From Qaidamihabitans albus (GTDB lineage: Bacteria; Actinomycetota; Actinomycetes; Mycobacteriales; Pseudonocardiaceae), in assembly GCF_016464705.1 (NCBI RefSeq), contig NZ_JAEHOB010000001.1:310001-374000 (forward strand): a stretch of DNA of 64,000 nt, given 5' to 3'. How positions within the stretch are numbered: position 1 is the first letter of the stretch; every line of letters begins with the position of its first letter. Shown here piece by piece: positions 32,503 through 34,496 of the stretch. Position numbers and translations under genes: made by a program. The notes under the pieces are model-generated. The model saw nothing but the letters and a program-made list of their open reading frames with translations, ran no database searches and was not told the origin of the DNA.

Positions 32503-32616
32503 GGTTACATAGTGAAACCGCCATGTATCACCCGGGCAGTGGTTCCCCGGCATGTTCGGCCTGCCTAGCGTTGGTCACCGGCAGAGTGCCGCGCGCACGG
32601 AAGGTCGGTGATTCAC

Positions 32617-32682
32617 ATGGGTGGATGCGGTTGCTGTGGTTCGTGTTCCGGTCCCGGATGCGGCTGCTGCGGGAAGTGCTAG
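32617..32682 (+). CDS. 21-residue cysteine-rich microprotein
   Basis: An ATG at 32617 opens a 21-codon frame ending TAG. It contains eight cysteines and seven glycines. The module CGCC-G-S-C is repeated as CGCC-G-K-C, separated by SGPG, so the peptide is two tandem C-x-C-C-x-x-C units. GGAAGGTC lies upstream and a -10-like TAGCGT near 32565. A perfect hairpin follows at 32706. The composition suggests a metallothionein-like metal chelator or a modified peptide. I do not recognise a named family. Confidence 0.6.
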   Translation: MGGCGCCGSCSGPGCGCCGKC

Positions 32683-32705: not shown

Positions 32706-32735
32706 CGGCGCGTTCGCAGCGTCGCGAACGCGCCG
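32706..32735. terminator. Hairpin after the cysteine-rich microprotein
   Basis: CGGCGCGTTCGC (32706-32717) pairs perfectly with GCGAACGCGCCG (32724-32735) around the loop AGCGTC, 23 nt past the stop codon. Confidence 0.7.
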
Positions 32736-32891: not shown

Positions 32892-34496
32892 GTGAGCGAC
32901 GTGGGTGACCTGGTCGCAGGCCGGTACCGGCTGCGACGCCGTATCGGCAGTGGGGCGATGGGCGTCGTCTGGCAGGCCGACGACGAGCGGTTGCGCCGTG
33001 CCGTCGCCGTCAAGCAGCTGCTGCCGCAGCCGGGCGAGGATCCGGCGCGGGCCGAGGAGGCACGGCACCGGGCGATGCGGGAGGGCCGGATCGCCGCGCG
33101 GCTGCAGCACCCGAACGCGATCGCCGTGCACGACGTCGTCGAGGACCATGGCCTGCCGGTGCTGGTCATGGAGTACCTGCCCTCGCGCAGCCTCGCCGAC
33201 CTGCTCACCGAGCGGGGTGCCCTCGACCCCGCCGTAGTCGCCGACATCGGCACGCAGGTCGCCTCCGCGCTGGCCGCGGCGCATGCCGCGGGAATCGTGC
33301 ATCGCGATATCAAGCCCGGCAACGTCCTGATCGACGACGACGGCGTCGCCAAGATCGCCGACTTCGGCATATCACATGCCACCGACGACGTGTCGGTCAC
33401 GCGTTCCGGCCTGGTCGCGGGCACGCCCGCCTACCTCGCGCCGGAGACGGCGCGGGGTAGCCCGCCGACGCCCGCCTCCGACGTCTTCTCGCTCGGCGCC
33501 ACGCTGTACGCGGCGGTGGAGGGCGTGCCGCCGTTCGGTGTCGAGGACGAGAACTCACTGGCGTTGCTGCACCGGGTGGCGGAGGGCACCGTCCCGCCGC
33601 CGCGCCGGGCGGGACCGCTCGAACCGGTACTGCTGGGCATGTTGCGGCCCGACCCGGCCGAGCGGCTGGGCGCGGCTCAGGTCCGCGACGCCGCGCGGGC
33701 CGTGGCCGCGGGCCGTCCGGTGCCGGACGCGCTCGCGCGTGCCGCGGGTGACTGGCACACGCAGCCACTGGCCGCGGTCCCGGCCGCCGGCCCCGCGGGA
33801 ACCAGGCTCGACGCCGTGCCGGCCAGGGCCGCCCGGCCCCGGCGCGGGCGGCTGTTTGCCGTGGTGGGGGGCGTGCTCGTCGCCCTGTTGGCCGGTGTGC
33901 TGCTGCTGACCCAGCTCAACTCCGGTGAGCAGAGCGCCGCGCGGCAGCCGCAGGCGAGCGGTACCCGGCCGGTGGCGGCGGCCGAGCTGGAACGGGCGGT
34001 CGCCGAGTACTACGCACTCCTGCCGGATCGGCCGGGCGCGGCCTGGGCACGGCTGGGACCCGGGCTTCGCGCCGAGGGCAGGCAGGAGTACGAGAGCCGG
34101 TGGGCGAAGGTGTCCGAGCTGGACGTGGTCTCCCAGCCGCGCGAGACCGGGGAGCGCACCGTGCATGTGGGCACCGAGCTCGTCCTGGACGACGGGGCCA
34201 TGGTCACCGAGTTCCACCAGCTCGGCCTGATCACCGACGGTGACGCGCTCTTGATCGACTCCGACACCCTCCTGCACAGCGAGAGCACCGCGCCCCCACC
34301 GCCCGAGGACAAGGACGACAGCAACGACAGCAGCGACAAGAACGACAGCAACGACAAGAACAACAAGAACAACAAGAACAACAAGGAGGACAAGGGCAAG
34401 GAGGACGAGAAGGGCGAGAAGGGCGAGAAGGGTGAGGACCGCAAGGGCGAGGCGGACGAGAAGGGGGAGCGGGACAAGAAGGGTGAGCGGAACTGA
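32892..34496 (+). CDS. Transmembrane Ser/Thr protein kinase with Asn/Lys-rich tail
   Basis: This 534-residue protein has an N-terminal Hanks kinase domain (about 8-270) with IGSGAMGVVWQ, VAVKQL, HRDIKPGN, DFG and APE. A membrane helix (about 320-340) follows, then a small extracellular domain (about 365-470). The last 60 residues are a low-complexity tail of Asp, Asn, Lys, Glu and Gly (DKNDSNDKNNKNNKNNK). No PASTA repeat is present. It starts with GTG, preceded by TAACCT and a 6-nt spacer, so the transcript may be leaderless. Confidence 0.9.
   Translation: MSDVGDLVAGRYRLRRRIGSGAMGVVWQADDERLRRAVAVKQLLPQPGEDPARAEEARHRAMREGRIAARLQHPNAIAVHDVVEDHGLPVLVMEYLPSRSLADLLTERGALDPAVVADIGTQVASALAAAHAAGIVHRDIKPGNVLIDDDGVAKIADFGISHATDDVSVTRSGLVAGTPAYLAPETARGSPPTPASDVFSLGATLYAAVEGVPPFGVEDENSLALLHRVAEGTVPPPRRAGPLEPVLLGMLRPDPAERLGAAQVRDAARAVAAGRPVPDALARAAGDWHTQPLAAVPAAGPAGTRLDAVPARAARPRRGRLFAVVGGVLVALLAGVLLLTQLNSGEQSAARQPQASGTRPVAAAELERAVAEYYALLPDRPGAAWARLGPGLRAEGRQEYESRWAKVSELDVVSQPRETGERTVHVGTELVLDDGAMVTEFHQLGLITDGDALLIDSDTLLHSESTAPPPPEDKDDSNDSSDKNDSNDKNNKNNKNNKEDKGKEDEKGEKGEKGEDRKGEADEKGERDKKGERN

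Follow-up and report, generated by a model that had tools for sequence, protein, structure and literature searches.

The locus raises the question of whether a reading frame of 21 codons, eight of them for cysteine, is a gene at all and, if so, what so small a peptide might do for Qaidamihabitans albus. The frame lies within a stretch of 64,000 nucleotides that was analyzed as a whole (here, the window), and positions 32617 to 32682 of the forward strand read as MGGCGCCGSCSGPGCGCCGKC followed by the stop codon TAG, that is, 21 residues with eight cysteines. The initial annotation had described two CGCC-G-x-C modules around SGPG, and both its coordinates and its sequence were correct. Its contention that the cysteine pattern exceeds chance was upheld as well, given that the window contains a single copy of the eight-cysteine DNA pattern, which 100 dinucleotide shuffles never reproduced. 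The conserved part, C-x-C-C-x-x-C-[ST]-G-P-x-C-G-C-C-x-x-C (positions 32626 to 32679, forward strand), consists of two Cys4 modules.

Conservation of the cysteine pattern among relatives had been proposed as the test of the claim, and when this test was run, the pattern was kept. The core GCxCCxxC[ST]GPxCGCCxxC recurs within the Pseudonocardiaceae, the family to which the window belongs. With a profile built from 14 members (A1), matches at an E value of ≤1e-3 were obtained in 148 of 297 family genomes, spread over 35 of 46 genera, and another built from 35 members (A2) matched 199 of the 297 genomes and 40 of the 46 genera at an E value of ≤0.02. Since about one-third of the 297 genomes had no peptide match with A2 even at this last threshold, the peptide is not essential to the family. 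At the level of the order, 15 of 200 genomes were matched, all of them inside the Pseudonocardiaceae, and in phylum-wide searches the genome of origin was the sole match, both at an E value of ≤1e-3 (1 of 346 genomes) and at ≤0.02 (149 genomes). Bacteria beyond the phylum were covered by a profile scan of contigs, in which the nine named loci among the matches listed came from Prauserella, Longimycelium, Lentzea, Saccharomonospora, and Saccharopolyspora, all genera of the Pseudonocardiaceae. A nucleotide query of 201 bases had matches in 22 of 100 related genomes, the genome of origin among them, and most of these matches were confined to the ORF. The peptide was encoded at 18 of the 20 loci fetched from this search; its spacing was standard at 15 of them, and at three (L010, L011, and L012) one cysteine was shifted, with the total still at eight. 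No peptide was encoded at the other two (L015 and L020). A further 20 places had eight cysteines in all cases; they were chosen as profile matches and thus confirm these matches rather than providing an independent count. A tblastn search of one extended form against plasmids returned nothing, and PADLOC reported none. In the titles, abstracts, and parts of papers covered, no description of this peptide was found, which leaves its absence from the literature unproven.

Coding selection was evaluated over 39 of 40 loci, with L089, which also has eight cysteines, omitted because of a one-residue shift. In the frame of the peptide, pS was 0.72 and pN was 0.18; the pS/pN values of the other two frames were 0.21/0.35 and 0.26/0.32. 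Along similar lines, mean entropy over the same loci was 0.48, 0.43, and 1.21 for codon positions 1, 2, and 3, respectively. All eight cysteines were invariant in 39 of 39 loci, their codons alternating between TGC and TGT, and Gly 12 and Gly 16 were likewise kept in all 39 and Pro 13 in 35. In the variants beginning MSGCGCGCGKC and MGGCCGCSNC, one cysteine has moved and the total is still eight, which would make sense if it is the thiolate count that matters. Judging from this conservation within the family and the purifying selection in frame, the frame is a real gene, conserved across the Pseudonocardiaceae, and the 21-residue peptide is presumably translated in vivo. A chance ORF was ruled out by the conservation, the codon pattern, and the shuffles. 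A noncoding RNA was rejected too: Rfam gave four subthreshold matches only, and the excess of substitution at third positions favors coding.

The members of this family start at different places. Taking the nearest start codon as the assumed one, 21 of 40 loci start at the MGGC start or one residue before it, and the other 19 carry an N-terminal extension of 3 to 14 residues, often acidic. The core is identical in kind between the short and extended forms. Some genomes, such as G010, have two matches, and G032 has one of each form. In 12 of 36 mapped loci, the downstream gene was on the opposite strand and belonged to one family, recognized by eye as an alpha/beta hydrolase; all 12 were extended forms. 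Extended forms (L053 to L090) were also often found near genes that by eye looked to be hemE, hemG, hemQ-like, msrB, and ligD-like.

The proposal that the frame is a gene for a microprotein, served by a promoter and a hairpin of its own, was also borne out by conservation. Upstream of the frame, a 19-nt element with imperfect dyad symmetry, TCACCCGGGCAGTGGTTCC (positions 32528 to 32546, forward strand), is conserved in relatives, and the hexamer TAGCGT (32566 to 32571), which had been singled out as −10-like, follows it at 19 nt and behaves as a −10. The suggested ribosome-binding site corresponds to GGAAGG..GGTGAT (32599 to 32612), whose complementarity was counted against what we take to be the anti-Shine-Dalgarno sequence at the 3′ end of the 16S rRNA. 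Farther upstream, a block noted by eye, ACATAGTGA (32507 to 32515), recurs in several close relatives; all these features are on the forward strand. The 19-nt element followed after 19 to 22 nt by a TANNNT-like −10 satisfied the script in 27 of 40 loci, and the promoter was weaker or had one part missing in the remaining 13. By eye, the dyad showed no strict covariation.

A profile of this promoter unit (R1) drew on 25 of the 27 loci that qualified (L085 and L086 were omitted). In the genome of origin, its best match was the window locus, itself one of the 25 training loci, with an E value of 4.7e-6, the next one listed being 0.144. Across genomes, 60 of 60 were matched at an E value of ≤1, mostly weakly. 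The peptide was present at 24 of 30 fetched loci by script, plus L149, and absent at five (L157, L159, L162, L164, and L166); most of the peptide loci matched were training loci, those held out among the fetched ones being in G053, G034, G057, G059, G056, and G002. Searched for as a plain pattern, the element turned up in 36 of 60 genomes, the genome of origin not among them. Thirty of these loci were fetched and 29 read (L094 was dropped by the centering filter), and TANNNT lay 14 to 24 nt on in seven of the 29, six of them at the peptide; at L093, the plain element stands at the peptide without TANNNT. One locus, L105 (G027), has the element with TANNNT and no downstream cysteine peptide. 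A regulon defined by a shared promoter was considered and rejected, as the pattern and R1 matches mark no recognizable metal regulon, and we know of no metal-regulator site that the element resembles.

Downstream, a perfect hairpin of 12 bp (32706 to 32735, forward strand) begins 23 nt after the stop codon. It had been put forward as a terminator, of which the hairpin itself was confirmed; given that it has no T-run and that a consensus terminator scan reports nothing there, we infer the terminator role, with support from hairpins in the corresponding position in relatives: in 30 of 40 loci, the first 100 nt after the stop contain a strong hairpin (z ≤ −2 versus shuffles). It is probably a U-less terminator.

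Neighboring genes were counted with a crude gene caller. A gene was found within 400 nt downstream in 24 of 36 loci, on the opposite strand in 18 of the 24 and on the same strand in 6, and overall, the next gene downstream was on the opposite strand in 23 of the 36. Neighbors differ from locus to locus, and within 6 kb, the gene caller revealed no family of genes common to the short and extended forms in these 36 loci. Among the few neighbors read or scanned, no metal genes were recognized. In the window itself, the next gene downstream is a kinase gene on the same strand, and an FMN reductase was seen upstream of the peptide. In four loci (L052, L063, L082, and L083), the closest gene upstream, oriented divergently, belongs to one family (cluster 15), and its position suggests that it corresponds to the FMN reductase of the window. 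The Ser/Thr kinase (32892 to 34496) ends in a long low-complexity tail rich in Asp, Glu, Lys, and Asn (34300 to 34496); a comparable charged tail, whose repeats differ, is present at L052 (Prauserella shujinwangii).

What the peptide might do is best approached through its composition. In 39 cores, the 20 residues are C, G, S, P, T, N, A, and K, rarely D, H, or R; aromatic residues are absent, as are aliphatic side chains beyond Ala and Pro, and His appears once. Together, the invariant cysteines, the small spacers, and the lack of aromatics point to a metal-thiolate peptide. Like metallothioneins, it is very small, very rich in cysteine, and free of aromatics (21 residues and eight cysteines in the window), and the CxC, CC, and CxxC arrangements are conserved in 39 of 39 loci. 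No match to a known metallothionein family was obtained, peptides this short being hard for such searches: Pfam gave 0 families for 35 members and NCBIfam 0 for the window peptide (both at an E value of ≤1), PDB sequences gave 0 matches at an E value of ≤10, and PHROG gave no match. Therefore, the peptide is called metallothionein-like from its features, rather than a metallothionein.

Among the functions offered in the initial annotation, a minimal metallothionein seems to fit best on composition and invariant cysteines, while a precursor of a modified peptide is disfavored by the short-form starts and the lack, within 6 kb in the 36 mapped loci, of a neighbor family shared by both forms. With moderate confidence, we favor a peptide that acts on its own, much as a metallothionein would, and that binds a soft metal, Cu(I) or Zn(II), through its thiolates. 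A dedicated promoter would drive its expression from an autonomous one-gene transcription unit, and the resulting cytosolic microprotein would wrap a small metal-thiolate cluster with its eight invariant cysteines, the two C-x-C-C-x-x-C modules being joined by [ST]GPx. The soft metal would be buffered or sequestered, Cu(I) being the likelier of the two. Composition and conservation suggest metal binding; the choice of metal and regulation by metal are presumed. A role as a metal sensor, also offered initially, is possible.

The same motif was found in viruses. Over 19 residues, it lies with all eight cysteines inside larger proteins of four viral contigs of IMG/VR (L189, L190, L191, and L192), three of them head-module-like; a profile scan confirmed at least two contigs, and the exact pattern gave four, those two included. 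One protein is a fusion of 1,259 residues whose matches are portal, Mu F, and RNA-ligase-like, and two others, of 439 and 365 residues, had weak matches to a head maturation protease family (E values of 6.1e-6 and 0.001). The segment of the fourth contig is 79% identical to a segment of the 365-residue protein, and the identity of the latter to A2 is 76% over 21 columns. A tblastn search of two viral pieces against phages returned nothing. The likeness over about 19 residues may reflect shared descent or convergence. That the peptide might be the free-standing form of an eight-cysteine module of about 20 residues found also inside phage head-morphogenesis proteins, among the smallest autonomous metal-cluster domains and exchanged between bacteria and phages, with the bacterial copy either buffering metal or serving as decoy or donor to its phage counterpart, is an idea that we consider doubtful.

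The viral proteins also bear on a second function for the motif, a structural or interaction module in which two zinc knuckles would attach to a partner protein or to a sensor rather than buffer metal. The motif may act likewise inside the large viral proteins, and the conserved Gly 12, Gly 16, and Pro 13 between cysteines suggest a defined fold. However, the short form, at 21 residues, has few side chains with which to contact a partner, no neighbor is conserved, and the AlphaFold model of a 67-residue phage segment is of low confidence (pLDDT of 53.5), so that we hold this explanation to be unlikely. Eight cysteines would also suit thiol-disulfide redox or oxidant buffering, as would the divergent gene upstream in four loci, an FMN reductase if its position is a guide; that neighbor is not general, though, and no other redox link was found, making such a role decidedly unlikely.

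Varying neighbors and a mostly convergent next gene argue against both an attenuator and an operon for a ribosomally synthesized and modified peptide (RiPP). A RiPP precursor, in which the extended forms would carry a leader, could draw on their 3 to 14 extra residues, often acidic, in 19 of 40 members. Nevertheless, the two forms share the same core, the 21 that start at or one residue from the short-form start (start codons assumed) leave no room for a leader, and no gene family goes with both forms within 6 kb (36 loci, with maturase-domain scans that covered few neighbors); this origin appears highly unlikely. As for a Cys-responsive attenuator leader peptide, the window does present a short cysteine-rich ORF, a hairpin, and then the kinase gene on the same strand, and mycobacterial polycysteine upstream ORFs are also short, cysteine-rich, and actinobacterial (PMC9031893). 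These, however, are leaderless, with contiguous cysteine codons, and regulate downstream genes. In our case, the predicted −10 leaves a 5′ untranslated region with a ribosome site, which makes a leaderless mRNA improbable; conservation extends to Gly and Pro positions, and of the 24 loci that have a gene within 400 nt downstream, just 6 have it on the same strand. We regard attenuation as extremely unlikely.

In order to put the metallothionein-like reading into perspective, the peptide can be set beside known systems. Fungal Cu-thioneins (metallothionein family 8 of Neurospora and Agaricus, and the units of Tremella TmMT) are likewise very short and cysteine rich, with CxC-type spacing and small Pro spacers; the layout of the window peptide resembles the seven-cysteine unit of one such protein, CXCX3CSCPPGXCXCAXCP, and, according to a 2016 paper, the fungal peptides of 26 residues with seven cysteines were the shortest metallothioneins reported when the classification was made (PMC4755600). 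The window peptide differs in having 21 residues and eight cysteines, CxCC instead of CxC, a bacterial origin, and no family match; the likeness may be convergent, and metal binding here would be by analogy. MymT, the mycobacterial copper metallothionein, is also encoded by a small, nonannotated, cysteine-rich actinobacterial ORF, but at 4.9 kDa, it is more than twice as large and has a reported role in Cu resistance (PMC7558416); this comparison is by description, not by sequence. SmtA-type bacterial metallothioneins are small and cysteine rich as well, yet their fold is that of a zinc finger, with a hydrophobic core (PMC10612145, PMC7558416), for which the window peptide lacks the residues. 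COG0523 metal chaperones share the C-x-C-C metal site (PMC2770081, PMC7895991), in their case a single motif inside a GTPase, whereas the window peptide has two motifs and almost nothing else.

The Pseudonocardiaceae thus have a conserved gene smaller than those that gene callers usually handle, family-wide in these bacteria and absent from the family libraries searched. If it binds metal as expected, the peptide would fall below the 26 residues of the fungal peptides in length and would provide a tiny synthetic system for metal-thiolate clusters.
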